Assembly: GCA_016779585.1 (NCBI GenBank)
Contig: JADHNI010000001.1
Span: forward strand, 1 to 64,000
Reading direction: 5' to 3'
Origin: Pseudomonadales bacterium
GTDB taxonomy: Bacteria > Pseudomonadota > Gammaproteobacteria > Pseudomonadales > Azotimanducaceae
DNA length: 64,000 nt
In this document: in pieces, positions 27,340 to 44,253 of the stretch
Position numbering within the stretch: position 1 is the first letter of the stretch
Layout: every line of letters begins with the position of its first letter
Notes under the pieces: generated by a model
Seen by the model: the letters and a program-made list of their open reading frames with translations, nothing else
The model's database searches: none
What the model was told of the DNA's origin: nothing
Translations under genes and position numbers: made by a program

Positions 27340-28515
27340 CTACCCGCCGGTAAACGCCTGCAGGCCAGTCTGTGCGCGGCCGAGGATCAGTGCATGAATG
27401 TCATGCGTACCCTCGTAGGTGTTTACGGTCTCAAGATTCATGACGTGGCGAATTACGTGATACTCATCAGAAATACCGTTGCCACCATGCATGTCGCGGG
27501 ACATGCGGGCAATGTCCAGTGCCTTGCCGCAATTGTTGCGCTTCATCAATGAAATGTTTTCCACCGGGCAATCATCGTCATCCATCATGCGGCCGATCCT
27601 GAGTGCTCCCTGCAGGCCAAGAGCGATTTCTGTCTGCATGTCTGCCAGTTTCTTCTGGATCAACTGGTTGGCGGCCAGGGCCCGGCCAAATTGCTTGCGT
27701 TCGAGGGTGTAGTTCAATGCCGCCTGCCAGCAAAACTCAGCAGCGCCCATCGCGCCCCAGGCAATGCCGTACCGGGCCTTGTTCAGGCAGCCGAATGGTC
27801 CGCCCAGGCCTTTAACATTGGGCAGCAGGTTTTCTTCGGGAATTTCACAGTCACTCAATACGATTTCACCCGTGACTGAGGCGCGCAGACTGAACTTGCC
27901 CTCAATCTTCGGTGTCTCGAAACCCGGTGTACCGCGTTCCACGACAAAGCCGCGAATCACGCCGTCCAGCTTGGCCCACACCACCGCCAGATCAGCAATC
28001 GGTGAATTGGTAATCCACATCTTGGCACCATTAAGCAGATACCCGCCGTCTGTCTTCTCGGCACGGGTAATCATGCTGCCGGGGTCAGAACCATGGTCCG
28101 GCTCAGTCAGGCCGAAACAGCCCACCCACTCGCCTGTCGCGAGCTTCGGCAGGTACTTTTCGCGTTGCTCCTCCGTGCCGTAGGTGTAGATCGGGTGCAT
28201 GACCAGTGAAGATTGCACGCTCATCGCCGAGCGGTAACCGGAATCGACCCGCTCTACCTCACGGGCAACCAGGCCATAAGACACGTAATTGACGTTGGAG
28301 CAGCCGTATTTTTCCGGCAAGGTTGGACCCAGCAGCCCCAACTCGCCCATCTCATTCATGATTTCCCGGTGAAAATGCTCATCCCGGTAGGCCTGCTGTA
28401 CCCGGCTCAGCAGTCTATCCTGGGCATAGGCCCTCGCTGAATCCCGGATCAATCGCTCATCCTCGGATAGCTGATCGTCCAGTTGGAAAGGGTCTTGCCA
28501 GTTAAAACTTCCCAT
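27340..28515 (-). CDS. gcdH: Glutaryl-CoA dehydrogenase
   Basis: FAD-dependent enzyme that oxidises and decarboxylates glutaryl-CoA to crotonyl-CoA in lysine and tryptophan breakdown; 391 aa. Features are the acyl-CoA dehydrogenase signatures [16 protein letters not shown] and the C-terminal [20 protein letters not shown], with the catalytic Glu in [20 protein letters not shown]. The decarboxylase Arg context [16 protein letters not shown] (residues ~93-108) favours GcdH over ordinary acyl-CoA dehydrogenases. It appears monocistronic here; its usual LysR regulator and CoA-transferase partner are not adjacent. Confidence 0.9.
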
Positions 28516-28700
28516 AGTGTCCTCTAGTCTCAGGGCTCAATTCGTTCGAAGCGGCGCATTATATAGGCTCCGGCGTACAGGTGCATGGACGTCGCCTACA
28601 CAAACAAGTTGTTAGAATGTTTCGAAATAAGCGCTCTATCCCGATGTTTATAAACACTTATTAGATAAATTTGGCGGTCTAATTCAGGCGGAGATCTGAA

Positions 28701-29011
28701 ATGGCGACAAGAGAGATCGGATCCTGGGTCATCTTCCCCCCTATGGTGTTCATACTCGTCAAACTCGTGCTACCGATGCCGCAATCGACGGCGCTGAATT
28801 GAAGCCTGCCATTCAGCTGATTAACCTGGTGTCCGCCGAAAAATTTGAGCCTGGGAACTATACAGATGAAGTCAGACACCATATGCTCAGGGTGATCGAG
28901 CAGAAGGTAAATGGCGAAGAGATCCTGGTCGCGCAGGAAGCCGCGTAGAAGAAACCCGCGTAAAAAGCCCCTGCCAAAAAAGCTCGAGCATCAAAAAAGT
29001 CCAGCAAATAG
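28701..29011 (+). pseudogene. Relic of a ku (NHEJ DNA-end-binding) gene
   Basis: ATG at 28701 opens a short frame (MATREIGSWVIF...FILVKL) resembling the Ku start, and ends early at a TGA. A second frame from about 28770 reads DGAELKPAIQLINLVSAEKF, then EPGNYTDEVRHHMLRVIEQK and VNGEEI. This fits the segment near the end of Ku (ELxMAxxLI...F.PexYxDEyRexvLelIexK). The tail KKPA-stop-KAPAKKARASKKSSK is a Lys/Ala-rich Ku-type tail with stops at 28946 (TAG) and after KKPA (TAA), each one base from a Lys codon. The central ~200 codons of Ku are absent. I infer a large internal deletion plus nonsense changes. Confidence 0.75.
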
Positions 29012-29032
29012 TAAGAGGTAGGCACTGGACCA

Positions 29033-29851
29033 ATGAAGGGTTACTCCACGCGTGATGTGGCGGAACTGCTGGAAATTTCGCCGGAAACCATCCGGGAAAT
29101 TGCCCGGGCAGGCATCCTCGAACCAAGCAGAACCGAAGGCAACCGGTATCGCTTCGACTTCCAGGACATTATTGTCCTGCGAACAGCGAAAGAGCTGATG
29201 GATGCGGGTGTTCGCCGTGCCCAGATTAACAATGCCCTGTTCAAGCTAAAAACCCGCCTGCCTTCCAATCGGCCGCTGACATCCCTGCGAATATCCGGCG
29301 ATGGCGGCAAGGTTGTGATCCGGGAGGAAGACCAGGTGTACGATCCTGATTCCGGGCAGATTCACTTTAATTTCGCGGTGGCAGACCTGGCCGGCACCGT
29401 GGCTCCGCTGGCACGCCAGGCGGCAGAAGAAGCGGAAGGCAGCGATCAGCTGTCATCGGACGACTGGTTTGACCTGGGTGTCGATCTCGAGGCCGTGTCT
29501 CCCGAAGATGCACCGGCTGCCTACCTCCGGGCCCTGGAACTGGACCCCTATCATTCAGATGCCCACGTTAACCTTGGTCGATTACTTCAGGAAGCAGGTG
29601 AATACGAGGCCGCGGAAGGTCATTACAACCAGGCACTGGATGCAGAACCGGACAATGTGCTCGCCGCGTTTAACATGGGAACACTGTTTGAAGACATGGG
29701 CCGTGTGCAGGATGCGATAGCGGCTTACAAGCGAGCAACCAACCTGGCTGATGCTCACTACAACCTGTCCAGGTTATACGAACTCGTGGGTGAACACGCT
29801 GAAGCGCTCAAGCATCTGAAGACATATCGGAGCCTGATCGATCCCGGTTAG
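29033..29851 (+). CDS. MerR-type HTH / TPR fusion protein
   Basis: A 272-aa protein. The N-terminus (~1-75) is a MerR-like winged helix: YSTRDVAELLEISPETIREIARAGILEP (in parts), then NRYRFDFQDIIVLRTAKELMDAG. A linker with acidic stretches follows, then TPR units from ~155: AYLRALELDPYHSDAHVNLG, EYEAAEGHYNQALDAEPDNV, RVQDAIAAYKRATNLADAHY. No effector cysteines typical of metal-sensing MerR proteins are visible. It starts 21 bp after the ku relic on the same strand, suggesting the two once formed a unit. DNA target and partner are unknown. Confidence 0.75.
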   Translation: MKGYSTRDVAELLEISPETIREIARAGILEPSRTEGNRYRFDFQDIIVLRTAKELMDAGVRRAQINNALFKLKTRLPSNRPLTSLRISGDGGKVVIREEDQVYDPDSGQIHFNFAVADLAGTVAPLARQAAEEAEGSDQLSSDDWFDLGVDLEAVSPEDAPAAYLRALELDPYHSDAHVNLGRLLQEAGEYEAAEGHYNQALDAEPDNVLAAFNMGTLFEDMGRVQDAIAAYKRATNLADAHYNLSRLYELVGEHAEALKHLKTYRSLIDPG

Positions 29852-31367: not shown

Positions 31368-31374
31368 TCAGAAG

Positions 31375-31833
31375 CTATACAGGAGCGCTGGAGGCATCAG
31401 CCACGGCTTCCCGTTTCACAGTCACCCAGTGGAAGACGAAACCACCTATTCCTCCTGCGATTCCCTGCGCAAGCAGCCCGGTGATTTCGCGGGTCGGAGC
31501 GATACCGGATACACCGAGCGCAGCCTTGGCGAGCACATGAAGCGCAATCATGCCGACGAACCCGGCGGAAACGTAACCAACCATCCTGAGGTGCGGGACA
31601 AAGCGGATAATGGCTGCCGCAACACTGAGGCCAATCGCCAGACCGATGGCAACCAGCGGCAGATAAACGTCGTACATATGGGTCACGTCGTGAATCAGGG
31701 CGTCGATTCTCTGCGCGAAGGTTACTTCGTAGCCGAGACTCACTACCGTTGCGATGTTTCCCTGGCTGACGAACGCAGCACCAAATATATAGGCTGCCAC
31801 CACGGCGGCGATGAATCCTGCAATTACCTTCAT
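31375..31833 (-). CDS. Hypothetical four-helix membrane protein
   Basis: A 152-aa protein with about four membrane segments: IAGFIAAVVAAYIFGAAFV, YLPLVAIGLAIGLSVAAAII, MVGYVSAGFVGMIALHVLAK and LLAQGIAGGIGGFVFHWV. No family is recognised and no catalytic motif is seen. It is probably in the inner membrane. The gene diverges from the PQQ sugar dehydrogenase gene and leads the DUF3301/M28 group. Confidence 0.6.
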   Translation of the reverse strand: MKVIAGFIAAVVAAYIFGAAFVSQGNIATVVSLGYEVTFAQRIDALIHDVTHMYDVYLPLVAIGLAIGLSVAAAIIRFVPHLRMVGYVSAGFVGMIALHVLAKAALGVSGIAPTREITGLLAQGIAGGIGGFVFHWVTVKREAVADASSAPV

Positions 31834-31902
31834 AACGGGTCGTATCTCATATTCTGCTTAGCCGTATAATAGAATCTATATACCTTAAGCTTAAGTCGAA
31901 TC

Positions 31903-32982
31903 ATGAAAAAACTTTTCTCCCTATTCACCTCATTGTTCATGGCTGGTGTTGTCAATGCAGCAGACTACCAGATCGAGACCGTCGCGGAGGGCTTCGAACT
32001 GCCCTGGTCGATCGATTTCCTGCCGGACGGTGGTTACCTGGTAACCACTCGACCAGGAGAGATTTATCGACTTTCTCCGGATGGTGAAAAGGGCGAGCCT
32101 TTGGAAGGGACACCCGCCACGTATTTCGCTGGCCAGGGCGGTTACTTTGACATCGTCCTCCATCCCGATTTCGGGGAGAACGATACTGTCTACCTTGCCT
32201 ACGCGGGTGGCACCCCGGAAGCAAATGGTACGACGATTACACGTGCAATACTTGCAGAGTCCGGATTCGTCGATGCAGAGGTCATTTTCACGGCTTCGCC
32301 CACCAAGGACACTCCCCTTCACTATGGCGGCAAGATGCTTTTCCTGCCGGACGGCACACTGATGGTAACTACTGGCGACGGCTTCCAGTACCGCGAGGCA
32401 CCGCTGGATAAGTCCAGTCACCTGGGCAAGGTCATCCGCATCAACGATGACGGCTCGACACCTGAAGGAAATCCTTTCTCAGGCGAAGACGGAGACCCAC
32501 TGGTTTTCTCGTATGGCCATCGCAATCCACAGGGTCTGGCGATCGATTCCGAGACCGGAGACGTCTACCTGCATGAACATGGGCCCAAGGGTGGCGATGA
32601 GGTCAACCTGATTTCTGCCGGCGCAAATTACGGTTGGCCGGCTGTGACTTATGGTGACAATTACACAGGGGCCTACGTCTCTCCGTTAAAGCAGTACCCG
32701 GGTGTGACTGATCCATTGCACTATTGGGTACCCAGCGTCGCTCCTTCCGGGCTCGCGGTTTACCGTGGCGAGATGTTTCCTGAATGGCAAGGAGATCTGC
32801 TGGTCGGTGCGCTTGTCGACAAGGAGGTCCGTCTGCTGGAAATGGACAAGGGTGAGGTCGTGAACGAGATGCCCCTGTTTTCCGAAATCGACCAGCGCAT
32901 ACGTGATGTTCGGGTCGGTCCTGAGGGTCAGGTCTACCTGTTGACTGATGAAGGTCGGATTTTGAGAGTCACAGCCAAGTAG
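31903..32982 (+). CDS. PQQ-dependent soluble aldose dehydrogenase (YliI-like)
   Basis: A 359-aa periplasmic six-bladed beta-propeller. Signal peptide MKKLFSLFTSLFMAGVVNA precedes ADYQIETVAEG. Conserved propeller and active-site segments are LPWSIDFLPDG, TRPGEIYRL, LHYGGKMLF, FSYGHRNPQGLAID, HEHGPKGGDEVNL (catalytic His and Ca-binding region) and GANYGWPAVTYG. Relatives oxidise aldose sugars with PQQ, but no PQQ biosynthesis genes occur in the window. A 12-bp palindrome CTTAAGCTTAAG lies at 31884-31895, close to the ATG, and a TATAAT at 31865-31870 without a matching -35. Confidence 0.85.
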   Translation: MKKLFSLFTSLFMAGVVNAADYQIETVAEGFELPWSIDFLPDGGYLVTTRPGEIYRLSPDGEKGEPLEGTPATYFAGQGGYFDIVLHPDFGENDTVYLAYAGGTPEANGTTITRAILAESGFVDAEVIFTASPTKDTPLHYGGKMLFLPDGTLMVTTGDGFQYREAPLDKSSHLGKVIRINDDGSTPEGNPFSGEDGDPLVFSYGHRNPQGLAIDSETGDVYLHEHGPKGGDEVNLISAGANYGWPAVTYGDNYTGAYVSPLKQYPGVTDPLHYWVPSVAPSGLAVYRGEMFPEWQGDLLVGALVDKEVRLLEMDKGEVVNEMPLFSEIDQRIRDVRVGPEGQVYLLTDEGRILRVTAK

Positions 32983-33003
32983 ACACTTTTTGGGGGGCAT
33001 GGT

Positions 33004-33735
33004 TTGTTTAAGCAATGGCTGACAAGCACCCTGGTCGGTTACCTGACCAAGGAGGTCGATCAACCCGATGCCGTCAGGGGGCTGGGGTACAGTTGGCAAG
33101 CAGAGGTCAAACCAGGTGACATCCTGCTGGTTGAGGGTCGTTCACGTATCAGCACAGCCATCAAGTACCTGACCCAGTCCACCTGGTCGCACTCTGCACT
33201 GGTTATCAACAGCGAACCGGGTGAGGTGATCGAGGCGGATGTAAAAAATGGTGTAGGTATCCAATCATTTTCCAAGTATGAGAACTTCAATGCCCGCATC
33301 TGTCGGCCAATTGGTCTTAGTGAGGAAGAAATTCAGCAGGTGCTGGATTTCGCGATACAGCACATTGGCGTCAGCTATGATGTCAAAAACCTGGTTGACC
33401 TTGCCCGGTACCTGATTCCGACACCCCCGGTGCCTGTGAGATACCGTCGTCAAATGCTGACACTTGGCAGCGGCGATCCCACGGAAAAACTGATTTGCTC
33501 TGCACTGATTGCGCGCGCTTTCCAGAGCGTGCGTTACCCGATCATGCCGACACAGTGGTGGTCAGAAGAAGGTGACATCATCTCACAGGTAAGGCATTAC
33601 TCGGTGTTTGTACCCAGGGATTTTGACCTGTCGCCCTACTTCGACATCATCAAGCCAACAGTAACCCACGGGTTTGATCATCGGGCGATGATCTGGAGCA
33701 GCGAGGAAGAAGCTGGCGGAGGGGGTGGGATTTGA
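33004..33735 (+). CDS. YiiX/YaeF-like permuted papain-fold hydrolase
   Basis: A 243-aa protein resembling the C92 group of permuted NlpC/P60 enzymes. A probable catalytic His is in STWSHSALVIN (residue ~63) and a probable catalytic Cys in KLICSALIARAF (~165). GDILLVEGRSRIS and IEADVKNGVGI are typical surrounding segments. Substrate is unknown; relatives act on peptidoglycan peptides or acyl groups. It starts with TTG at 33004 behind a G-run, 21 bp after the sugar dehydrogenase gene. The last seven codons (AGGGGGI and stop) run into the tRNA-Ser gene on the other strand, so the C-terminus may be longer than the ancestral one. Confidence 0.7.
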   Translation: MFKQWLTSTLVGYLTKEVDQPDAVRGLGYSWQAEVKPGDILLVEGRSRISTAIKYLTQSTWSHSALVINSEPGEVIEADVKNGVGIQSFSKYENFNARICRPIGLSEEEIQQVLDFAIQHIGVSYDVKNLVDLARYLIPTPPVPVRYRRQMLTLGSGDPTEKLICSALIARAFQSVRYPIMPTQWWSEEGDIISQVRHYSVFVPRDFDLSPYFDIIKPTVTHGFDHRAMIWSSEEEAGGGGGI

Positions 33736-33801
33736 ACCCACGATGCCTCTCGACATGCCGGTTTTCAAGACCGGTGCATTCGACCACTCTGCCACCCCTC
33801 C
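33714..33801 (-). tRNA. tRNA-Ser (UGA)
   Basis: An 88-nt class II tRNA with encoded CCA. Acceptor GGAGGGG pairs with CCCCTCC, discriminator G as expected for Ser. Anticodon stem CCGGT/ACCGG with loop CTTGAAA gives UGA. Long variable arm and T-arm GTGGG-TTCAAAT-CCCAC are present. Its linkage to yccA is also found in E. coli (serT). Its 3' end overlaps the end of the YiiX-like gene by 22 bp. Confidence 0.97.
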
Positions 33802-33847
33802 GAAGAAGGTGCGAAATATACGCGATTCACAGATAGGCATCAATGAC

Positions 33848-44077: not shown

Positions 44078-44253
44078 GGTCTGCGGAATACTTTAAAAAT
44101 CAGCGTGTTACATCTTATAACTAATGTCGGTCTGCTTAAATGCTTTTATGCGATTAAGTAGGCCTGGTTATGCCCGGTTGTCGCTACTCCCTTATTTCCA
44201 GTTGATGTAGAATGCGCGGCTTTTAATAACTCATTTTACGCAGGGACATACTC

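Follow-up and report, generated by a model that had tools for sequence, protein, structure and literature searches.

A decayed ku gene upstream of a MerR-TPR gene and a conserved 33-base block within it as the candidate promoter of that neighbor

The gap upstream of a MerR-TPR gene in the window, by which we mean the whole 64,000-nucleotide stretch analyzed here, holds the remains of a ku gene, and a 33-base block inside these remains recurs in related genomes. The best explanation overall, to which we assign a probability of about 0.65, is that ku died, that the NHEJ pathway was lost, and that one scrap of the gene was kept as a putative promoter of MerR-TPR. The window belongs to a 3.49-Mb draft genome of 130 contigs that is 94.6% complete. 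A 517-base gap separates a leftward acyl-CoA dehydrogenase gene from the rightward MerR-TPR gene, and the Ku pieces lie on the rightward strand of this gap, split over two frames (Table 1). The closest named relative of the MerR-TPR protein comes from a Pseudomonadales bacterium metagenome assembly, with 96% identity.

Table 1. Coordinates of the ku remnant, the conserved block, and the flanking genes in the window.
Feature	Position	Strand	Evidence
ku remnant, N-terminal part (about Ku codons 1–25)	28701–28774	+	in-register alignment with intact ku of L032 and L018 and with remnant L013
ku remnant, end of the Ku core (about residues 181–235)	28775–28945	+	TIGR02772 and tblastn against L018
Lys/Ala-rich tail remnant, terminal TAG at 29009–29011	28946–29011	+	translation; alignment with L013
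Conserved block AACTATACA-N17-TATGCTC, proposed MerR-TPR promoter	28856–28888	+	motif kept in the genus
Hexamers inside the block, TATACA and TATGCT	28859–28864 and 28882–28887	+	
MerR-TPR gene, open frame of 272 aa, MerR-type HTH and TPR repeats	29033–29851	+	Pfam
acyl-CoA dehydrogenase gene, left flank	27340–28515	-	Pfam; collinear in G014

The initial annotation had recognized a decayed ku gene here, and this identification was borne out. The frame from 28701 reads MATREIGSWVIFPPMVFILVKLVLPMPQSTALN up to a stop, while the frame from 28775 reads DAAIDGAELKPAIQLINLVSAEKFEPGNYTDEVRHHMLRVIEQKVNGEEILVAQEAA, a stop, KKPA, a second stop, and KAPAKKARASKKSSK followed by a third. A profile search, which could have revealed no Ku similarity, matched the 57-aa C-terminal piece to the NCBIfam Ku_bact model TIGR02772 (E 2.6e-7, profile positions 185–231 of 259); the score of 30 bits is under the curated cut-off of 150, as expected for a fragment. 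By tblastn, the same piece is 62% identical to residues 181–235 of the intact ku at the same place in L018 (E 3.5e-16), and the intact ku genes of L018 and L032 match the NCBIfam model at 7.6e-75 and 3.3e-74, respectively. Both pieces gave no Pfam match up to E 1, and a PF02735 search of the whole genome also returned no match; most of the core modeled by PF02735 is gone. The N-terminal piece is weak by itself (best tblastn E 0.068; no NCBIfam match up to E 1) but can be aligned in register with the starts of intact ku genes and also with L013, a sister remnant. Relatives were also checked for a different ancestral gene at this place; they carry an intact ku there, and the ancestral gene was therefore ku. 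Judged from these matches, it is practically certain that 28701–29011 is a ku pseudogene.

Alignment with intact ku and with L013 showed that one base was lost immediately after 28769 and that the core lacks about Ku codons 26–180. The KIIDIM segment that precedes the tail is missing through a second deletion; a worn copy of this segment persists in L013. Together with this frameshift and the two deletions, the disabling lesions of the window ku include two in-frame stops in the tail, TAG at 28946–28948 and TAA at 28961–28963. The Lys-to-stop changes proposed for the tail were confirmed, as L013, itself a remnant, has AAG opposite both stops. The proposed joining of the N-terminus to the C-terminus across a lost core also stood, but the N- and C-terminal pieces lie in separate reading frames. 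With its core deleted, its frame shifted, and stops in its tail, the remnant cannot make a Ku protein. No lesion common to the window and L013 was visible in the alignment. Sister species carry different ku lesions, and it seems that the frame broke separately in each or that an older common lesion was masked by later loss.

The decay had also been taken to imply loss of bacterial NHEJ in this lineage. Among 17 genomes (our own and 16 other drafts of the genus), Ku was present in none, and LigD, judged by its polymerase domain, was likewise found in 0/17 of these drafts; ligD was also sought elsewhere in our own genome, and no LigD polymerase domain was found. Completeness of 90% or more together with contamination of no more than 5% is reached by five of these genomes, none of which has LigD. 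RecB is present in our own genome. The absence of both Ku and the LigD polymerase domain indicates that two-component NHEJ is in all likelihood gone from this genome and its genus, in support of the earlier claim, with the limit that all 17 are drafts and only 5/17 reach these levels of completeness and contamination.

Relatives with an intact ku upstream of MerR-TPR were sought in a sample of 150 genomes of the family. Ku was present in 36, the LigD polymerase domain in 38, and MerR-TPR, at a threshold of E 1e-40 or better, in 110. In 32 of the 36 Ku-positive genomes ku is directly upstream of MerR-TPR on the same strand (two tables compared by hand). The exceptions are G018 and G134, where the two genes are on separate contigs, G104, where contig ends intervene, and G112, which has no MerR-TPR match at the threshold. 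This strong pairing suggests that the MerR-TPR protein may work with NHEJ, or be co-regulated with it, where the pathway is alive. A ku located apart from MerR-TPR also occurs in one other genus, g15 (G082, G146, and G134): Ku was matched twice in both G146 and G082, with a TAG in one frame of G082, while in G134 the copy at MerR-TPR is decayed and a separate contig carries an open ku. On a contig titled Gemmatimonadetes (L048), a MerR-TPR gene of 47% identity directly follows ku, an arrangement that could reflect a transferred pair, an old pairing, or a binning error.

Remnants of ku occupy this place in nine genomes, six of the genus (the window, L013, L014, L015, and L017 by tblastn, and L105 by alignment) and three outside it (L058, L021, and L031). 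A MerR tree of 49 rows, which leaves out L001, L008, L011, and L012 (no MerR-TPR), the remote matches L049–L053, and duplicate copies of loci, recovered the genus as a clade with support of 99/96 and grouped the window with L013 (99/79). The label of intact ku requires five changes on this tree (gains or losses), four of them forced by well-supported branches, although several long branches make some placings unsure. All 10 genus rows are without intact ku. A single loss of ku at the base of the genus is the simplest reading, yet the window and L013 share no visible lesion.

The 33-base block encodes the Ku codons N-Y-T-D-E-V-R-H-H-M-L of the last core helix and fits the pattern AACTATACA-N17-TATNCTC. 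This motif, which was defined after the alignments had been inspected, has an exact copy in eight of the 10 MerR-TPR-bearing genomes of the genus (G000, G014, G009, G005, G001, G015, G002, and G008) and is carried exactly by no intact-ku locus. It is missing from G011 and G007, though both have MerR-TPR. In G011 (locus L016), an acyl-CoA dehydrogenase gene of the same direction (L016 2860–4011) is in the place of ku and ends about 70–90 bases before MerR-TPR; this gene may drive MerR-TPR, which would make a promoter of its own unneeded. No reason was found for the missing motif in G007. The motif is located 45 to 231 bases from the MerR-TPR start across genomes. Among the codons of the helix, Arg is CGC or CGT in all 14 intact ku genes listed and AGA in all six genus remnants.

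In G009, the block is identical to that of the window, synonymous sites included, while only 5/20 of the bases that follow it and 11/20 of those that precede it agree. When the window was compared with 28.6 kb of G009, only two exact matches were longer than this block, and the longest overlaps a tRNA. In G002 and G008, where no other trace of ku was recognized, all 15 fixed bases and their spacing are kept, while the spacers agree with that of the window at 4 and 3 of 17 positions, respectively, about as expected by chance. The spacer is also kept in the other six motif genomes, at 14–17 of 17 positions relative to the window.

The specificity of the motif was evaluated with controls. A relaxed pattern occurred once in the whole 3.49-Mb genome, at the MerR-TPR locus, and its backward control gave no match. 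A slightly shorter pattern gave six matches in the 150 family genomes, five at MerR-TPR of genus members and one elsewhere in G030, compared to one match for the backward control. With three mismatches allowed, the window had one match and 35 of 100 shuffled windows had at least one; therefore, only exact or near-exact matches carry meaning.

Neutral divergence was gauged by comparison of the window with G014. Over 68 matched genes, third codon positions are 46% identical, and fourfold sites are 36% identical over 7744 sites, which is near saturation. Measured against fourfold sites, the block is conserved far beyond expectation. Other between-gene stretches are also well conserved in this pair, for example 153 of 170 bases at 44078–44253, and G009, G002, and G008 therefore carry more weight for the claim than G014 does. 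A conserved regulatory stretch alone is not special; what is special about the block is its location in a dead gene and its persistence in these three genomes. The same pair differs farther right, where a 2.48-kb stretch of the window (31368–33847) with a glucose/sorbosone dehydrogenase gene, a C92 peptidase-like gene, and a tRNA at its right end (33717–33801) has a counterpart of only 350 bases in G014, reflecting an insertion or a loss beside the tRNA.

A pair of AT-rich hexamers with 17 bases between them is typical promoter geometry. The hexamers of the block agree with the sigma-70 consensus (TTGACA, TATAAT) at 8 of 12 bases with a spacing of 17, within the 16–18 bases expected for sigma-70, and a promoter scan of 28400–29100 at threshold 9 found none; a terminator scan of the same range also found none. 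Hexamers and spacing are conserved while the spacer varies when G002 and G008 are compared with the other six genomes, within which the spacer is also kept. Two such hexamers, aimed at MerR-TPR and kept without their surroundings in two species, fit a promoter, and the variable distance from motif to start suits one as well. Thus we consider the block a likely candidate for the MerR-TPR promoter, one that would have arisen within ku and outlasted it. Between the block and MerR-TPR (28889–29032), complementary GTCCAG and CTGGAC were seen by eye to flank the likely ribosome-binding site.

The order of events can be sketched as follows. The gene ku would have become dispensable, perhaps, as a guess, after loss of ligD, and its frame would then have broken differently in sister species. 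In or near the ancestor of the genus, the stretch of the last core helix would already have served as the MerR-TPR promoter, with a -35 hexamer TATACA drawn from Tyr-Thr codons and a -10 hexamer TATGCT from His-Met-Leu codons; because the block spells a normal Ku helix, its origin probably dates to a time when ku was being read. Selection on MerR-TPR expression could then have kept this scrap while the remaining ku eroded. We lean slightly towards this fuller scenario, in which the promoter arose in a living ku, the gene dissolved around it once NHEJ was abandoned, and ku survives only as the switch of its neighbor.

An unlikely alternative is that each species lost its working ku recently and independently, that the similarity is leftover coding constraint, and that the block is functionless. 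Such a history would account for the window and L013 having no visible common lesion, for the normal Ku helix spelled by the block, and for the spacer being kept in six genomes. Within the block, the window and L013 differ at two sites, both at third codon positions; outside it, the differences fall on all three positions (2, 6, and 7 of 24 each at positions 1, 2, and 3), unlike a constrained frame. Recent death also sits poorly with the identity of the block in the window and G009, whose flanks and MerR-TPR fourfold sites differ widely, and with G002 and G008, which have no recognizable ku and keep the 15 fixed bases and their spacing but not the spacer. Since these two genomes retain both motif ends at the exact spacing around random spacers, neutral survival is unlikely as the whole story. 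The kept spacer of the six genomes and the third-position differences between the window and L013 nevertheless suggest that part of the conservation may be coding constraint that lasted until a late death of ku.

A role of the block as a protein-binding site, whether for MerR-TPR or for another regulator, rather than as a core promoter is quite improbable. The kept ends do reach past the hexamers, with AAC before and C after, the neighbor encodes a MerR-type DNA-binding domain, and a binding site could also explain the spacer kept in six genomes. No dyad symmetry was seen in the block by eye, however, the spacer has diverged in G002 and G008, and two AT-rich hexamers 17 apart match promoter geometry instead. 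Selection on a short peptide or small RNA made from the remnant is scarcely credible: a 57-codon stretch is open in the window, but the frame is broken or shortened in sisters and only the two ends are kept in G002 and G008. A structured RNA was rejected, as 28400–29150 gave no Rfam match up to E 1.

Outside the genus, another ku trace was observed 132–154 bases before MerR-TPR, reading TTGATATCAT in L022, L023, and the remnant L021, with the equivalent TTGATATGAT in L026. These traces stem from the KIIDIM codons and hold a -10-like TATCAT or TATGAT, and they are possibly a parallel case of promoter retention.

Relative to bacterial Ku of two-component NHEJ (TIGR02772; PF02735), the remnant is alike in its last core helix, its Lys/Ala-rich tail, and its gene position, and differs by the deleted core, the shifted frame, and the stops in the tail. 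A promoter inside an upstream coding sequence can serve the next gene of an operon. The block resembles such an intragenic promoter in that it would drive the next gene from within an upstream coding sequence; here, in contrast, the host sequence is dead and only two promoter-like ends are recognizable in two species. Narrow word searches of the open-access literature, which are no proof of absence, found no title or abstract opening that dealt with MerR-TPR paired with ku or with retention of a promoter after the death of ku. Sharda et al. 2020 (PMC7719229) describe multiple gains and losses of NHEJ across bacteria with rare transitions to Ku only, and the loss seen here is alike in that some lineages lose the pathway while relatives keep it. 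Passages of that paper deduce the losses from presence and absence by means of ancestral reconstruction, and the word "pseudogene" does not occur in its main text (count 0), whereas the present locus holds dead ku genes at several stages of decay in one place. Repeated NHEJ loss is already published, and what is new here is the conserved 33-base block inside the ku wreck.

With ku deaths at different stages in one place across related genomes, the order and repeatability of NHEJ loss become testable. The block offers a clear candidate case in which the promoter of a neighbor determines what is left of a dying gene, and the frequent pairing of ku with MerR-TPR is a lead to an uncharacterized gene linked with NHEJ.
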